Both the position numbers and the translations under genes were made by a program. Below the pieces are notes generated by a model. It was not told where the DNA came from, made no database searches, and was given only the letters and a program-made list of their open reading frames with translations. A DNA stretch of 20,491 bases from Gemmatimonadota bacterium (lineage in GTDB: Bacteria; Latescibacterota; UBA2968; UBA8231): assembly GCA_002712305.1 (NCBI GenBank), contig PATE01000146.1, forward strand, positions 1-20,491, written 5' to 3'. Of this stretch, positions 1,620 to 18,953 are shown piece by piece. The number at the start of each line of letters is the position of its first letter. Position 1 is the stretch's first letter.

Positions 1620-1922
1620 GTGTCTGTGAGATCGATCCTGCTCTCTGTCGCCGTTCTGATAGCGGTCTCGGTCACCGGCGTCTCGGCTGAACCGAAGCCG
1701 GGCGACATCTACGCTGAATACGTGTGGCGGGGACCGTACTACAATGCCTCCACATGGCAACGGGTCACCGATCCCAACGCCGCCGCCGCCGGTGCCAGAC
1801 AATTCCTGCCCAACAGACGAAACCGCATCACCATCGAAGACCTCGATCGCGCGATTGTCGCCGAGTTTCATATCGAACAGTGGGGGGCCACTCGGGCACG
1901 ACGGACACAGCGATTCGCATGA
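1620..1922 (+). CDS. N-terminal part of a secreted protein, split by a frameshift
   Basis: The GTG-started frame encodes a signal peptide (MSVRSILL, a hydrophobic core, then VSA before EPKPG at about residue 23) and the start of a mature extracellular domain. I do not recognise the domain. After EFHIEQWG the frame turns into unrelated Arg-rich sequence (ATRARRTQRFA) and stops. The shift lies at the six-G run at 1882-1887. Adding one G would continue smoothly as EQWGGHSGTTDTAIRMNG in the frame that reaches 2602. The original protein was therefore probably one secreted polypeptide of about 327 residues. It lies 9 bases after the hexosaminidase gene, in the same orientation, so the two are probably co-transcribed. 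The break may be a real mutation, a slippage site or an assembly error. Confidence 0.7.
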   Translation: MSVRSILLSVAVLIAVSVTGVSAEPKPGDIYAEYVWRGPYYNASTWQRVTDPNAAAAGARQFLPNRRNRITIEDLDRAIVAEFHIEQWGATRARRTQRFA

Positions 1923-2602
1923 ACGGTTCGGCGTGGATCCCCGTCGAACACCCACAAGCGATCCCCTCAGGTCGGGGGAGTTCAGCTTTTCCATTTCCCG
2001 AGTGTTATCAGTATTTCGCCTGGACCTCCGTGCCTTTGCCTCTCGAAGATCTGATCGCAGGTGAGAACCTTTTCGAGTTCACATCCGGGGATCAGGAATG
2101 CCTGTCCTTTGGGTGGGGTCAGTGGGGTGCATACAGCGCCATTTTCCGAATCTACTACGACGAGACCGAGCCCCATCCCACAGGGCAGATCGTTTCGCCC
2201 GCCTATCTGGAAGCCCTACACTTTGACGAACGACTCAACGGTGCCTTCCTGATCGATGATGTGTCCGTCGTCGTCGGCAGTGCCCAGACCGCCATCGACG
2301 AGAGTTCGTCCGCCGTGTTGCCCACGGAACTGCAGCTGCATGCGAATGCGCCGAACCCGTTCAACGCCGAGACGATCATCTCCTTCGATCTGCCAGACGC
2401 GGGCGAAGCCAGGTTGGCCGTCTCCAATCTTGCCGGCCAGCAGGTGGCCCAACTCATCGATCGGCCCCTCGACGCCGGCCACCACACCTATCGTTGGAAC
2501 GCACGCACCGACGACGGACGGCCTCTATCAACAGGGGTGTATCTCTACCGGTTGGAGGCACTCGGCATGATTCGCAGTGGGAAACGGCTCCTGCTGCGCT
2601 GA
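1919..2602 (+). CDS. C-terminal part of the frameshifted secreted protein, with a FlgD-like/Por-type sorting tail
   Basis: This frame continues the protein begun at 1620. Its first ATG after the shift is at 1919, but coherent coding starts at the G-run near 1886. The middle is a beta-rich domain with aromatic clusters (CYQYFAWTSVPLP, FGWGQWG) that I cannot name. It is followed by a conserved C-terminal module with NAPNPFNAETIISFDLP, LAVSNLAGQQV, YRWNARTDDGRPLSTGVYLY and a basic RSGKRLLLR end. This is the FlgD-like immunoglobulin fold seen in Por/type IX-like C-terminal sorting domains of FCB-group bacteria. It implies export and surface attachment or release; whether this organism has a type IX system cannot be judged here. 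The 3' piece has no signal peptide of its own, so it would not be exported unless translated with the 5' piece. Confidence 0.75.
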   Translation: MNGSAWIPVEHPQAIPSGRGSSAFPFPECYQYFAWTSVPLPLEDLIAGENLFEFTSGDQECLSFGWGQWGAYSAIFRIYYDETEPHPTGQIVSPAYLEALHFDERLNGAFLIDDVSVVVGSAQTAIDESSSAVLPTELQLHANAPNPFNAETIISFDLPDAGEARLAVSNLAGQQVAQLIDRPLDAGHHTYRWNARTDDGRPLSTGVYLYRLEALGMIRSGKRLLLR

Positions 2603-2711: not shown

Positions 2712-2987
2712 ATGCCCCTGCGACAGAAGCTTCTCGTTTTGTATGCCCACTCACCCGATCTCAAGAGTCGCGTCGTCAGTTGGGCCACCTACGACGGCAC
2801 GGGAAGGAGTTCTCCCGGGTCGGGAGATGAGGACAAACCGCCCTATGGCAGCGTCGTGGCGGCCATGGAAGATGGTTGGCGGGTGATTCAGTTTCCGCAA
2901 CAATCGATGGCCCATCCCGGCATGGAATACCACACATCCTATCTGCGTTACGAGTATATCCTGGAACAGCTCGAGGAGATCGACTGA
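2712..2987 (+). CDS. Unrecognised 91-residue protein, translationally coupled to PhyH
   Basis: I do not recognise a named family. The ATG at 2712 is chosen because sensible protein sequence begins there (MPLRQKLLVLYAH). The longer open frame from 2577 would overlap the secreted protein's coding end and is low-complexity. The protein is soluble, with no signal or membrane segment. It has a compact N-terminal half (VLYAHSPDLKSRVVSWATYDG), a Gly/Ser-rich loop (GTGRSSPGSGDEDKP), and a second half with AAMEDGWRVIQFPQ and an acidic end (YEYILEQLEEID). The stop overlaps the next gene's start as TGATG, and that gene's GAGGAG ribosome binding site lies inside this ORF. It is therefore very probably made together with the dioxygenase. 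A small accessory or regulatory partner is possible but unproven. Confidence 0.7.
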   Translation: MPLRQKLLVLYAHSPDLKSRVVSWATYDGTGRSSPGSGDEDKPPYGSVVAAMEDGWRVIQFPQQSMAHPGMEYHTSYLRYEYILEQLEEID

Positions 2988-3793
2988 TGGTCGCACGTGA
3001 ACACCTGCTCGACAGCAAACAGATGGCGCAATTTGTCGCCGACGGTTACCTGCGTTTCGATGAGATCGTTCCCGACGAACTCAACAAGGCAGCCTATGCA
3101 CAGATGGAAACCGGCGACATCGAACGACCTGGCTCGGGCACGAAATTGGCAGGCATGTGGCCCGATTCGGCCATTGGACAGATCATCCGTCTACCACAGA
3201 TCCAGGGCATCATGGCCAGTCTCGTGGGGCCTGATCCTCTGTACGATCACCACGCGGTCCACATCGTTCCGCCCACGCACAAACAGGGCCAGGTGTGGCA
3301 CGCCGATGCGATCATCGACCTGCGCCTCGACTTCGATATCCAATTCTTCTACTTCTGCCACGATACGCCGCGAGAGATGGGCGGCACCATGATCCTGCCC
3401 GGCTCACAGTATCGTCGCGTCTCTGAGTCCGATATCGGTCGTTACCAGAATTTCCTCGGTCAGCTGCCGATGGTGTGCAAGGCGGGAACTGTCATGGTCT
3501 GCCATCACGGGATCTGGCACTGTGCGCAGCCGAATCTCACCGAAGACACGCGCTACATGTTCAAACTGCGGCTCAATCCCACCGAGAAGCAGGAACAGCT
3601 GTGGAACACGGACGATCTCGAAGCCCCCGAGATCGGCGGCCTTCTTGGCAAGAACCACGAGTGGTATGGCAACGAGTCCCGCATCGAGGTGGTCAACCGC
3701 ATTCGCCAGTGGCGCCATCTAACGGGGAACGAAAAGTTCGATGTAAGCTACTGGATGGGTCGGCTCGAGAACGAGCCCGGCGGTTCGGCATAG
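2987..3793 (+). CDS. Phytanoyl-CoA dioxygenase (PhyH) family protein, copy 1
   Basis: A 268-residue non-haem iron(II)/2-oxoglutarate oxygenase of the PhyH superfamily, which hydroxylates or otherwise oxidises small organic substrates. The substrate is unknown. The proximal metal motif is HAD (H105, D107, in QVWHADAI). The distal metal ligand is probably H178 in WHCAQPN, and R189 in DTRYMFKLRL is the expected 2-oxoglutarate-binding arginine. GGTMILPGSQ (132-141) is the typical turn between them. All three iron ligands are present, so it should be active. The start ATG overlaps the stop of the 91-residue gene, with GAGGAG 8-9 bases upstream, which indicates translational coupling. The C-terminal 80 residues (from about 190) are an extra helical-looking region with LWNTDDLEAPEIGG. 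No transport signal is present; it is cytoplasmic. Confidence 0.9.
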   Translation: MVAREHLLDSKQMAQFVADGYLRFDEIVPDELNKAAYAQMETGDIERPGSGTKLAGMWPDSAIGQIIRLPQIQGIMASLVGPDPLYDHHAVHIVPPTHKQGQVWHADAIIDLRLDFDIQFFYFCHDTPREMGGTMILPGSQYRRVSESDIGRYQNFLGQLPMVCKAGTVMVCHHGIWHCAQPNLTEDTRYMFKLRLNPTEKQEQLWNTDDLEAPEIGGLLGKNHEWYGNESRIEVVNRIRQWRHLTGNEKFDVSYWMGRLENEPGGSA

Positions 3794-4157: not shown

Positions 4158-5870
4158 TCACTCGGCGCCCTTTCCCTTCAGTAGGGCCACGATCTCTTCG
4201 TGCCCGTAGCGTTCTGCCCATGCCACCGGCCGGGCCCACTCTGTATCGCCACCATTCGGATCGGCACCGCGCTCAAGCAGGAAGTTGCATAGTTCCTTCT
4301 GACCATAGCGCGCCGCCCATCCCAGAGGTGTGCTGTGCATCTGTGACTCGATGGCGTCTATCTCGACGCCACCCTCGACGAAGATGCGGGCGAAGTCGAC
4401 CACCTCGTCTGTCGTGTGGCCATACATGCTGGGGTTGCAGGACCGTGCCGCCAGGTGATGGAGGATGGTGAAATTAGCTCGCCCACTTCGGTGGTTGCGC
4501 TGCGTGGGATCGAAGCCCGCATCGATCAGGCGCTTGAGGTTGCGCACATAGCTGCGTCGGTCCCAGCCCTCGTTGGCAATCTTGAGGTTTCCGAGCCGCC
4601 AGCCGCGAATCGTCTGCTCTAACAGGTTGAACTGCTCCTTCTCCGGAATGGCAGGGCCGTAAGCCAGTTCGTGTTCGACGATGGTCTCGTTGCCCGCCAG
4701 AATGGCACTCCACATGAGTCGCTCGCGGGCGTCCGGGTTGGCTCGCAGGTGCTCGGCCAGCGCTGCCACGTCGTTGGTGACGCAGTACGTCAACGGATGA
4801 CCGACTGCACCGTGGAGAAACAGCAGATTGGCGACCTGCGTATGGCCATGCAGCATGGACTGCTCGATGGCGCTGCCCGAGGCGTAGATCTCGATGGCGG
4901 CCTTTGCGCCACCCGCCAGCAGGGCGCTCACAACCTCCAGGTGGCCACGGTTGGCCGCCAGCCACAGGGGGCCGCCCTTCTGTTCAATGGTCTCACCGGC
5001 GACTTCGATGGAGTAAGTCGCGTCAGGATCGGCACCGGCTTCCAGGAGCATGCGGACGATGTCTGCGTGACCGCGAAATGCCGCGATCGTGAGGGGCGCT
5101 GCTTTGCCGCTGCCGTTGATCGGATCGGTACCTGCATCGAGCCTCTGGCGAACACCCGCCTTGTCGCCCAGACCTGCGGCGGACCACAGGTCGACGCGGG
5201 CACCGCGACCGACGAGCAGCCTCGCCATGGCCGTATACGCAGGGTAGTCCTCGTCGGGTACCTTCCAGCCGTGATCGAGGGCTCGGTGCAGCGGGGTCTG
5301 CCCGTCTGAGTCCTGTGCTTCGATGTCGGCGTCGCGGTCGAGCAGGAGAGTGGCCAAGTCGAGATCGGCCCGTTCGACGGCACGATGTAGAGGTGTACGG
5401 CCCCGGTTGTCGCGCGCTCCAATCAGCGCAGCGTCTGCGTCCAACATGGCCGTCACCTGGTCGATGTCGCTGCGCCCCGCCGCTTCACACAAATCCCGAC
5501 CGGCGTCGCTGGCACCGAGGCTGGTTTCAAGGTGTGCATCGATGGCTTCGACAATCGCGGTGTGTCCCCGGTCAAAGGCGATCGCACGCGGCGACGTCGC
5601 CTCGCGATGGGGATAGATCCCCTTGAGAGGATCGGCACCTGATTTCAACAGAAGCTGCACGATGTCGAGCTGATTGCCATAGACGGCGTAGTGAAGGGCC
5701 TGATGTTCGTTATTGGCCAGTGCGTCCTGGCGGGCAAGCTCGGGTGCGTCTGCGAGAATGCGGCGTACCTCTTCGATGTCACCGTGCTCACAGGCGGCAC
5801 CCAGCAGAACATGCGTCTCGAAGCGGTCGTTCCGCGATGGGGCGTCGTCGTGCAGGGTCTGTTCAACCAT
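4158..5870 (-). CDS. Ankyrin-repeat protein, probably the C-terminal part of a sigma factor-ankyrin fusion
   Basis: A protein of about 570 residues made almost entirely of ankyrin helices, a protein-binding scaffold. Clear repeats, counted from the chosen start, are ALHYAVYGNQLDIVQLLL (near 57), TPLHRAVERADLDLATLLL (159), LTIAAFRGHADIVRMLLEAGADP (260), LWLAANRGHLEVVSALL (302) and TPLGWAARYGQKELCNFLLERGADP (514). Degenerate repeats lie between. There is no signal peptide or membrane segment. I chose the ATG at 5870 because AAGGAAAGG (5880-5888) sits 9 bases upstream. The same frame is open back to 5963 and encodes the second half of sigma region 4 (VAAFLDISEGTVRKRLHDARKAL) before meeting the TAG that ends the sigma gene. 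The ankyrin part may thus be made by translational restart, or only as a fusion if the TAG is read through or absent in the organism. Confidence 0.85.
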   Translation of the reverse strand: MVEQTLHDDAPSRNDRFETHVLLGAACEHGDIEEVRRILADAPELARQDALANNEHQALHYAVYGNQLDIVQLLLKSGADPLKGIYPHREATSPRAIAFDRGHTAIVEAIDAHLETSLGASDAGRDLCEAAGRSDIDQVTAMLDADAALIGARDNRGRTPLHRAVERADLDLATLLLDRDADIEAQDSDGQTPLHRALDHGWKVPDEDYPAYTAMARLLVGRGARVDLWSAAGLGDKAGVRQRLDAGTDPINGSGKAAPLTIAAFRGHADIVRMLLEAGADPDATYSIEVAGETIEQKGGPLWLAANRGHLEVVSALLAGGAKAAIEIYASGSAIEQSMLHGHTQVANLLFLHGAVGHPLTYCVTNDVAALAEHLRANPDARERLMWSAILAGNETIVEHELAYGPAIPEKEQFNLLEQTIRGWRLGNLKIANEGWDRRSYVRNLKRLIDAGFDPTQRNHRSGRANFTILHHLAARSCNPSMYGHTTDEVVDFARIFVEGGVEIDAIESQMHSTPLGWAARYGQKELCNFLLERGADPNGGDTEWARPVAWAERYGHEEIVALLKGKGAE

Positions 5871-5963
5871 GTCGATCATCCTTTCCTTCAGGGCTTTTCG
5901 GGCATCGTGGAGGCGCTTGCGCACCGTGCCTTCGGTGATATCGAGAAATGCGGCGACCTGGGC

Positions 5964-6443
5964 CTACGAGCGCTCACCCATGTAGAACAAGGTGACCGTC
6001 TCGCGCTGAGCCTCTGGTAGAGCCGCTATCGCTTGGCGGACGACGGCAGCCGTCTCGGCGCGCTCGATGGTATCCAGGGCCGACGTCTGTCCCACATCGG
6101 CCGTCACCTGAGCCACAACACCCTCCAGCGGTACGGTCGGAATGCCAACCCGCCTGGTGCGCCGATCACAATGCTTGTGCACGATGCGGCGCAACCAGCC
6201 CCCCAAGGCCGCCGGCTCCCGCAGGCTGTCCAGATCGCCGAGGACCTGTATGAAGGCATCCTGCGCGGCATCCTCCGCCAGATGGAAATCTCCCAGCAGA
6301 GACCAGGCGTAGCCGACCGCCATATCCTGGAATTGTCTGACCAGGGCCGTGAACGCCGTCGAATCGCCTTCACGGGCGCCTCGGACGAGCTCGGCAGGTG
6401 GCGCTGACGGTTGGCCGCCCAGATCGGTGGTGGATGGAGTCAT
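5964..6443 (-). CDS. ECF-type RNA polymerase sigma factor, truncated in region 4 by an in-frame TAG
   Basis: The 159 residues carry sigma-70 region 2 (about 29-98: AFTALVRQFQDMAVGYAWSLL, HLAEDAAQDAFIQVL, LGGWLRRIVHKHCDRRTRR) and the first helices of region 4 (about 133-159: VVRQAIAALPEAQRETVTLFYMGERS). Region 2 binds the core enzyme and the -10 element; region 4 binds -35 DNA. A TAG at 5964-5966 cuts region 4 before its helix-turn-helix. The next in-frame codons encode exactly the missing part, AQVAAFLDISEGTVRKRLHDARK. Family members usually have Tyr where the stop lies (SYAQVA), and TAT or TAC to TAG is one substitution. As it stands, the truncated product should not recognise a -35 element. 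No anti-sigma gene is adjacent, so the ankyrin extension could serve as a built-in control domain. Confidence 0.85.
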   Translation of the reverse strand: MTPSTTDLGGQPSAPPAELVRGAREGDSTAFTALVRQFQDMAVGYAWSLLGDFHLAEDAAQDAFIQVLGDLDSLREPAALGGWLRRIVHKHCDRRTRRVGIPTVPLEGVVAQVTADVGQTSALDTIERAETAAVVRQAIAALPEAQRETVTLFYMGERS

Positions 6444-6483
6444 TCCGGCATCTCAGGGTTGAAGGGACCAGGTGCATACTACA

Positions 6484-6520
6484 AAGCCCCGGGCCACCCG
6501 TGATACGTTCCATGGGGCTT
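6484..6520. repeat. 7-base inverted repeat in the divergent gap between the sigma gene and the ceramidase-like operon
   Basis: AAGCCCC (6484-6490) and GGGGCTT (6514-6520) are exact inverted copies separated by 23 bases, followed by an A-run. The 150-base gap must hold promoters for both directions. The repeat could be an operator or an RNA hairpin in a leader. I could not assign a convincing -35/-10 pair for either gene. Confidence 0.3.
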
Positions 6521-15092: not shown

Positions 15093-15148
15093 TTACCGCA
15101 GCTTGATGGACTCAGCCAGGATTGGAATCAAGAGAGGAACCAGCGCGC

Positions 15149-16066
15149 ATGACAGACAACGAGCCCTTCGTCGTCGACAAGAATCTGGGGAAGAAGCTAC
15201 AGCTCGGCCCAGATGATCTGCCCAAGACCAATGCAGACGGCGAGCCTGTCGTCGAATTGACACAAGAGCAGAAATATCTGTTCGACGCACGTGGCTGGCT
15301 GCTGGTGCCGGGCGCGATCGATCCGGACGAAGTCGAAGCGATGAGGCAACACGCAGAAGCCGTAAGAGATGAGCCTGAATCACTGCCCGAGCACGAGCGA
15401 AACTACATCTCGGGTCCCCTCGGCAAACTCACCGATCATCCAGTCGTCGTTGGTTTCCTCAATGAGTTTCTCAACCACCCCCATCTATCGAGCCCCTATT
15501 GCTATGGCTTCCGCATGGAAAGTTCCGGTCTCCGGTCGCCGTCCGCAGAGCCCGACAAACAGGGCAAGTTCAGCCCCCACAACGGCAGTGGCTTCTTTCG
15601 CTTCGCCGTCGACTCTCACCACTACCAGTGCGTCCCCGGCAAGGCCTTCAGCGGTCTGACGCGCGTCGTGTGGGAGTTGGCCCCCGTGAAGCACATGCAG
15701 GGCGGCACCCTTCTGGCGACGGGCAGTCACAAGGCCGCCTATACCGCCCCGGAGTCGATCCAGGATCCGCAATCTGAAGTGTGGGATACGTACGCATGCC
15801 CTGCGGGTTCTGTGCTGTTCTTCACCGAAGCGCTCGCACACAGCACCTGTCCATGGACGAACACCGAGAATGCACGTGTTGGAATCTTCAACCTGTACAA
15901 CAGTGTCGGTTCCAGTTGGGGTGACTGGCAACCACCGGAAGCATTGATCGAGAAAATGCCCCCGAAACGACAGACCTTGTTTCGCGGCGTGCATTGCGCG
16001 AACAACGTTCCCGGATTCCGCTACGGCGGACAGAACCAGGCAGACCGACCAAGAGCTGAAGTGTAG
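15149..16066 (+). CDS. Phytanoyl-CoA dioxygenase (PhyH) family protein, copy 2, divergent
   Basis: A 305-residue member of the PhyH superfamily. The ATG at 15149 has AGAGGA 10 bases upstream. The fold is indicated by LFDARGWLLVPGAIDPDEVEAMR near residue 45, RVVWELAPVKHMQGGTLLATGSHKA (172-196), and the distal block EALAHSTCPWTNTENARVGIFNLYN with H231 and R243. The usual proximal HxD motif is not obvious. H144 in SPHNGSG, or the HH in VDSHHYQ, may supply the ligand. This looks like a separate subfamily in which the first metal-binding block has changed, so iron-dependent activity is probable but not certain. It is not closely similar to the other two copies in this window. It lies between a GNAT remnant and an intact GNAT gene (convergent, 8-base gap). 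Confidence 0.85.
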   Translation: MTDNEPFVVDKNLGKKLQLGPDDLPKTNADGEPVVELTQEQKYLFDARGWLLVPGAIDPDEVEAMRQHAEAVRDEPESLPEHERNYISGPLGKLTDHPVVVGFLNEFLNHPHLSSPYCYGFRMESSGLRSPSAEPDKQGKFSPHNGSGFFRFAVDSHHYQCVPGKAFSGLTRVVWELAPVKHMQGGTLLATGSHKAAYTAPESIQDPQSEVWDTYACPAGSVLFFTEALAHSTCPWTNTENARVGIFNLYNSVGSSWGDWQPPEALIEKMPPKRQTLFRGVHCANNVPGFRYGGQNQADRPRAEV

Positions 16067-17855: not shown

Positions 17856-17958
17856 TACCGGGCCATTGCCTCGGTTGGCCCTGCTGTGCGGTGTGGTCAT
17901 AGATTCCGGCACTCGCAGCTTGAGGGACAAGCCCTGAGGCACCATGGCAGGAGGAGAG

Positions 17959-18009
17959 ATGGACGTGAACGTCGTGAATGCACCCCAGACTTTCGGACAG
18001 ATCCTATGA
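17959..18009 (+). CDS. Possible 16-residue leader peptide coupled to PhyH copy 3
   Basis: AGGAGGAGAG (17949-17958) precedes an ATG that opens a 16-codon frame, MDVNVVNAPQTFGQIL. Its TGA overlaps the dioxygenase ATG (ATGA at 18006-18009). The dioxygenase start itself has no comparable ribosome binding site. This arrangement suggests that ribosomes load at the leader and restart on the dioxygenase. I see no run of regulatory codons, so attenuation is not indicated. An in-frame ATG at 17944 would make it 21 residues, but the strong Shine-Dalgarno favours 17959. Confidence 0.45.
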   Translation: MDVNVVNAPQTFGQIL

Positions 18010-18953
18010 CCGGTATGCTGCTGTCACCGTCACAGCTGGATGAGTTCAAGGCCGAGGGAGCGCTTCAGATACGGGGTTTGATTCCTGCCGACGTAATCGA
18101 TGACTGGCAGGACCAATTGCGCGCCGTTTGCACCGGCGGAGTCGATCTCGACAAGCCGAGTACCTGGCCCGCTGGACGCTACGCACCAGAAGGTGGTTGG
18201 CCCGAGCTCAATCCAAATCAGTACGACGTGCTCAATCTGCAGTCCATCGTCGAACAGATCGGCGGTGGCGCCTTCGCGTCATCGCACCCAGCAGGTCACC
18301 CATGGTCGCCGCAGGTGCCCATGACCCGCGTAATCCTGCCGAGCGAGCCTGGCACCGAATGGACCGCCCCTCTTGATGGGCATCTCGATGGGTATGCCAC
18401 CGGTTGGGGTGGTGGCTTCATGGTGTTTTTCGCGGTCCTGCTTTGGGACGTCAGCAGTCCGACCGGCGGGGGGACCGCCTACTGGCCGCGGTCCCATCTT
18501 GCGAATCACCGACACTTCTTGAAGCATCCCGACCAGTTTGATGGGTCCTACCTCTTCACCGAGCCTGTGAAAAGCGGTGGACATCGAGCCCTGTTGGACG
18601 ATGACCCCAGCGTGGGGGACGTGGTCTGCATGACCGGGAACGCCGGGGATGCGATCATGGTCCACGGCCTCACGACACACATTGGATCGGTGAATGCGGC
18701 GGGATCTCAGCAGCCTCGCGTGGCACAGTTCGCCCGATTCTCTCACCGGGAAATGAGGGAGCAGGCACCGATGGTCATGTTCCCCGACAAGGACGGGACG
18801 CCGTGGAAACCACCACCGGGAACCCAAGACGACGACAATCAGGGGACCGGTTTTCTGCCACTCGGGCATCCGGGGCGCGATCTGATACGCTATGACGTTT
18901 CCGAGAATCTCTGGAAATACTGGTCCGACGCGCTCAACACCGAGCGGCCCTGA
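18006..18953 (+). CDS. Phytanoyl-CoA dioxygenase (PhyH) family protein, copy 3
   Basis: A 315-residue PhyH-superfamily oxygenase. The N terminus LSPSQLDEFKAEGALQIRGLIPADVID is the typical first helix-strand unit. The proximal iron motif is HLD (H126, D128 in PLDGHLDGY). GGGTAYWPRSH (154-164) is the usual turn, the distal ligand is probably H225 in HGLTTHIGS, and R238 in QPRVAQFARF should bind 2-oxoglutarate. All ligands are present, so it is probably active; the substrate is unknown. The start at 18006 overlaps the end of a short leader ORF. The frame is open back to 17886, but that part is Arg-rich and not family-like. An alternative ATG is at 18015. The NHL gene is 150 bases upstream, so they may be co-transcribed. 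Confidence 0.88.
   Translation: MTGMLLSPSQLDEFKAEGALQIRGLIPADVIDDWQDQLRAVCTGGVDLDKPSTWPAGRYAPEGGWPELNPNQYDVLNLQSIVEQIGGGAFASSHPAGHPWSPQVPMTRVILPSEPGTEWTAPLDGHLDGYATGWGGGFMVFFAVLLWDVSSPTGGGTAYWPRSHLANHRHFLKHPDQFDGSYLFTEPVKSGGHRALLDDDPSVGDVVCMTGNAGDAIMVHGLTTHIGSVNAAGSQQPRVAQFARFSHREMREQAPMVMFPDKDGTPWKPPPGTQDDDNQGTGFLPLGHPGRDLIRYDVSENLWKYWSDALNTERP

Follow-up and report, generated by a model that had tools for sequence, protein, structure and literature searches.

The window, that is, the whole stretch of 20,491 nucleotides analysed here, carries on its minus strand (6443..4158) a frame of 762 codons that ends in TGA and contains one internal stop, a TAG at codon 160 (Table 1). Pfam places along this frame Sigma70_r2, then Sigma70_r4_2, whose match spans the TAG, and then ankyrin arrays of about 550 residues. 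Chance falls far short of explaining a frame of this length that has a single stop and matches two domain sets, and the single-frame sigma-ankyrin fusion with one internal TAG described in an earlier note on this DNA is borne out. The sigma part has the makeup of an ECF (group IV) factor by sequence: regions 2 and 4 are present and directly joined, with 36 residues between the Pfam matches, and no Pfam model for region 3 matched. The TIGR02937 score is 71 bits against a cut-off of 42.9, and PF04542 and PF08281 also exceed their cut-offs. As the sequence reads, the window allele would encode a sigma factor truncated in region 4, and the long C-terminal extension that follows region 4 in frame in intact relatives is reached in the window only when the TAG is disregarded. 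An AlphaFold model built on a 23-row alignment shows the ankyrin part as paired helices with high confidence and gives low confidence to region 4 and the linker; Foldseek searches with the model returned ankyrins and DARPins. We infer that the ankyrin array acts as a sensor or partner-binding domain.

Table 1. Features of the sigma-ankyrin gene and its upstream region, with positions in the window
Feature	Position	Strand	Basis or remark
Promoter-like motif GGAACG-N14-CGGGGCTTTG	6482..6511	-	Upstream of the sigma start; common to most of the family
Native ATG that opens the sigma-ankyrin frame, weak Shine-Dalgarno	6441..6443	-	The G001 ortholog starts at the same position
Sigma region 2, residues 34-98	6150..6344	-	Pfam PF04542, E 7e-10
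Sigma region 4, residues 135-185, TAG inside	5889..6041	-	Pfam PF08281, E 4.6e-13
In-frame TAG, codon 160	5964..5966	-	Same-genus ortholog reads CAG (Gln)
Internal Shine-Dalgarno-like AAGGAAAGG, codons 186-188	5880..5888	-	Nucleotide-level conservation in the family
Internal ATG (Met192), candidate start of a free ankyrin tail	5868..5870	-	ATG in 29/33 relatives; 0/36 tail-less ECF controls; start of four stand-alone paralogs
Linker motif DAPSRNDRF, between sigma and tail	5820..5846	-	Common to members with different tails
Ankyrin-repeat array, residues ~210-757	4173..5816	-	Pfam Ank families, best E 1e-43; paired-helix model, high confidence
Predicted free tail, 570 aa, ATG192 to TGA	4158..5870	-	Open frame; initiation inferred from conservation

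Comparison with relatives indicates that the sigma-ankyrin fusion is genuine, because a collinear ortholog in the same genus (G001; public JABJJN010000056.1), 83% identical at the protein level over residues 1-760, is free of the stop and because further fusions are spread over the class. Two MAGs labelled Candidatus Poribacteria encode collinear fusions that are about 50% identical, and dozens of related long-tailed sigma factors are present among 47 genomes of the class; in the rest of the phylum, close matches came only from one further family (f5). Homologues in which the sigma and ankyrin parts are always separate genes, the finding that had been named earlier as fatal to a functional fusion, are not what these genomes hold: many of them carry intact fusions, and split genes as the usual state are ruled out by how common the fusions are. 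The gene neighbourhood is partly common with G001, where genes that we read from their sequences as ADP-ribosylglycohydrolase-like and alpha/beta-hydrolase-like lie near the sigma gene; in the window they lie farther away. The window also contains, by eye, three phytanoyl-CoA dioxygenase-family-like genes within 20 kb (2876-3793, 15122-16066 and 17886-18953, plus strand). A further gene at 1620-2602 (plus strand), for a secreted protein with a sorting-type C-terminal domain, is seemingly interrupted: the signal-peptide start is in one frame and the body in another, near a six-G run (1883-1888). The homolog in G001, a frame of 711 aa, is longer.

Judged by sequence, the gene belongs to a modular ECF sigma family of this uncultured class, with close relatives labelled Candidatus Poribacteria. 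Sigma factors of this same type carry ankyrin arrays, leucine-rich repeats (LRR; L080), GNAT-like domains (L119 and L120), or a tail with a weak FliM-like match (L081), and the tail of L154 had no Pfam match. Two members, L082 (2062-4194) and L126 (2295-4487, minus strand), have an unusual combination of sigma and ankyrin parts with a nucleotide-binding domain that resembles ATP synthase alpha/beta. The GNAT acetyltransferase-like tails of L119 and L120 were recognized through a match to Acetyltransf_9, and those of L124, L128, L135, L136 and L162 by eye. In the sigma tree, the LRR-tailed sigma clusters with the sigma parts of the window gene, G001 and G012 with full support, so tails have been exchanged even inside this small clade. 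The other sigma-ankyrin member of the window genome (L075, 1700-2700 in G000:C7) has decayed to a remnant, its sequence broken by several stops and frame changes.

ECF sigma factors with TPR tails (ECF42) and WD40-like tails (ECF57) have been described (PMC8999054). The family studied here resembles them in joining an ECF core to a repeat tail that is presumed to bind a partner protein and to take over control of the sigma from an anti-sigma factor, but differs in that ankyrin, LRR, GNAT or other tails occur on one sigma family and are combined with a conserved putative internal start; ankyrin goes unmentioned in that review (PMC8999054). Membership in ECF42 or ECF57 was rejected, as the tail is an ankyrin array and Pfam gave neither a TPR nor a WD40 match. 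Among named sigma proteins, this analysis met ankyrin similarity in MzaA only, the sigma of the MZA anti-phage system (NCBIfam NF041931). It is likewise named a sigma-70 family protein, and its model matches ankyrin repeats; however, the match here covers only the ankyrin part and scores 102 to 105 (102.3 bits) against a cut-off of 800. With the sigma part alone as query, MzaA was not among the best matches and PADLOC returned no match. An MZA defence identity is ruled out by this sub-cut-off, ankyrin-only similarity and by the PADLOC result. Ankyrin-repeat proteins of Poribacteria, which parallel the present case in being ankyrin-rich proteins of related genomes, have been discussed as possible host-interaction proteins, with sigma factors unmentioned (PMC3909097). 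Our search of the open-access literature found no report of a sigma-ankyrin fusion, and an existing ECF group name may apply to the family.

At codon 160, the nearest relatives have glutamine (CAG in G001, Gln in G012), and farther relatives mostly have Gln or His. From the CAG in G001, the change in the window is C to T, turning CAG into TAG. The earlier note had expected tyrosine as the usual residue at this position, which these relatives do not bear out, and the peptide that it gave after the stop, DISEGTV, is corrected to AQVAAFLDITEGTV. Between the window gene and G001, the dN/dS ratio is 0.08 over residues 18-159 and 0.03 in region 2; past the TAG, residues 161-212 give 0.04 and the ankyrin part 0.07. 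With G012 as outgroup, the sigma part has accumulated 5 non-synonymous and 20 synonymous changes on the window branch, and 4.5 and 20.5, respectively, along the branch to G001, so that no acceleration of dN/dS is seen on the window branch. Given these low ratios and the unaccelerated branch, the sigma factor was under full constraint until very recently.

The TAG is most likely due to a recent one-off mutation, a nonsense allele, with a base-call error or a strain polymorphism as the other candidates. A nonsense mutation and a sequencing error had both been proposed before and are retained; the third proposal, conditional readthrough, is not. Under it, the TAG would act as a switch that decides whether a short sigma fragment or the full fusion is made, and the codons after the TAG are indeed conserved (residues 161-212, above), but such conservation is expected equally from a recent mutation. 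No relative examined has a stop at codon 160, RF1 is intact in the genome, no suppressor tRNA with a CUA anticodon occurs in the incomplete set of tRNAs read, and TAG is an ordinary stop that ends 4 of the 13 other genes in the window, on which usage was counted. Programmed readthrough and stop reassignment are out on these grounds, and we regard the switch as very improbable. A base-call or assembly error, with an intact fusion in the organism itself, is a possible if rather unlikely account. It agrees with a single substitution in 762 codons, with the lack of evident relaxed selection and with the apparent interruption of the neighbouring gene at 1620-2602; against it, this part of the gene shows many breaks in relatives that look real, so that a true nonsense allele would be unsurprising.

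The earlier note had also pointed to a ribosome binding site at 5880-5888 ahead of the ATG at 5870. This site is present and has proved meaningful, being conserved at the nucleotide level across relatives of the family. The segment from 5888 to 5868 is kept in about 33 relatives with different tails (ankyrin, LRR and GNAT); codons 186-188 form a purine run in nearly every member (AAGGAAAGG, AAGGAGAGG, AAAAAGGAG and TCAGGAGAG), and ATG follows at codon 192. Because Lys-Glu-Arg codons are purine-rich anyway, the Shine-Dalgarno (SD) signal was tested against the protein sequence. Arg188 is encoded by AGG in 17 of 22 members and by AGA in 3, compared with 0-4 AGG codons at other conserved Arg columns and 8.8% overall. 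After clustering at 60% identity, AGG still accounts for 15 of 19 (P ~5e-13 against background); P values in this analysis are optimistic since the member sequences are related, and the signal survives clustering. Relative to synonymous shuffles, SD energy is lowest at columns 187, 188 and 186 among 210, and the ten columns with the weakest predicted mRNA structure out of 201 all fall within columns 189-200. The SD signal persists in 11 members that do not have Arg188, and it holds separately in 18 intact fusions and in 15 broken or incomplete members. It is missing in some relatives (the second copy of L077, and L131), and in the window gene by itself SD energy is no better than in synonymous alternatives, so that the case is one made from the family.

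Control sequences were examined in the same way. Among tail-less ECFs of the same class, Met192 occurs in 0 of 36 and AGG at Arg188 in 1 of 9, in a set where several of the 40 ORFs came from the wrong strand and the effective n is about 30. For other ECF groups, those with TPR or HEAT tails, the count of Met192 is 11 of 18, and the SD and structure signals are weaker. In the family, then, the SD-like stretch and the ATG are more conserved than the protein requires, as is expected of a gene with an in-frame internal start.

SD-like stretches within genes may serve other roles. One such role would be to slow the ribosome, through the AGG codon or the SD-like stretch, at the boundary between sigma and tail so that the two parts fold separately, with no start at this point. 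The site does lie where two domains meet, and these genes use AGG less than other codons. We nonetheless consider ribosome slowing unlikely, as the signal persists in members without AGG and as a near-invariant ATG stands at start-like spacing with minimal mRNA structure around it. Moreover, four ankyrin-only paralogs without a sigma part (L010-L013) start at the ATG homologous to ATG192 and have purine runs upstream.

Ankyrin-tailed members were examined in all frames for breaks, with the remnants L134 and L075 left out of the count. Twelve breaks lie upstream of the internal ATG (one each in the window, L079, L083, L117, L131, L133, L147 and L149, and two each in L150 and L152; that of L079 is a frameshift at a six-G run) and four downstream (L132, L122, L131 and L133), with 174 of 744 codons lying upstream (P ~2e-5, or ~2e-4 when one upstream break is counted per gene). 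The breaks are scattered over the sigma tree and fall at different positions, and are therefore probably mostly independent. Sigma parts of the members are graded, from the pristine one of the window to remnants. Such a graded series, together with many paralogs per genome and the remnant state of the window genome's other member, could also be read as simple decay, in which sigma genes turn into pseudogenes after duplication and their ankyrin tails are carried along as passengers. This is hardly likely, since the tail, with about 77% of the length, is largely spared (4 of the 16 breaks), 14 of 15 broken members keep the internal SD and ATG, and the window gene is under strong purifying selection.

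Sensor-tailed sigma factors are usually regarded as one-component switches. The reading that we favour, with a probability of roughly 0.7, is instead that one gene has two starts and encodes both a sigma-sensor fusion and, from the conserved internal start, the free tail. Regions 2 and 4 and the linker, shared by the family, carry a C-terminal module that can be exchanged, presumably for sensing or binding; here it is the ankyrin array. Translation from the native ATG would give the full fusion, and initiation at the internal SD and ATG, where region 4 ends, is predicted to give the tail alone (570 aa here). As a guess at its role, the free tail would probably either compete with the fused tail for a common partner or pair with it, and this would set the signal level needed before the sigma factor activates its own promoter. 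In the window genome, the recent C-to-T stop at codon 160 should leave only a region-2 fragment and the free tail to be made. A known parallel is the in-frame internal start of cas8 and cas10, which yields Cas11 (PMC11899642). There, an SD-like sequence and an ATG inside a long gene yield its C-terminal part as a separate subunit; the present case, in which the same is predicted from conservation only, concerns sigma genes with exchangeable tails.

More tentatively, and on balance doubtfully, the whole sigma family may be dual-coding, each gene providing a fusion and the same sensor without sigma. The free sensor would then act in trans as a decoy or anti-sigma factor, and its independence would explain both the repeated loss of sigma parts and the swapping of sensors. 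A conserved second start would make sensor-tailed sigma factors into two-protein systems hidden in one gene, their ratio set by translation, and a simple rule to recognize them would be a purine run followed by an ATG past the region 4 helix. It would also give a reason for the exchange of sensor types on one sigma factor and suggest a route from sigma factors to stand-alone repeat proteins, which have been noted as a class in bacteria associated with sponges.

Upstream of the sigma start, the family motif gtAACc-N14-TGGGnCTTTa was recovered by motif sampling from 35 upstream regions with a score of 538, against 400-409 in four shuffled sets. It resembles an ECF -35/-10 pair, which suggests autoregulation. 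The 16-mer core of the window's motif occurs only at the window gene in its own genome (G000) and only at the ortholog in G001, and a search of these two genomes with it gave no target genes beyond the gene's own promoter. Many members (L126, L116, L130, L141, L151, L131 and L135) have a palindrome-like element, AAGGCCTT(C), after the promoter motif and immediately past the presumed -10; it may be an operator, a processing site or something else.
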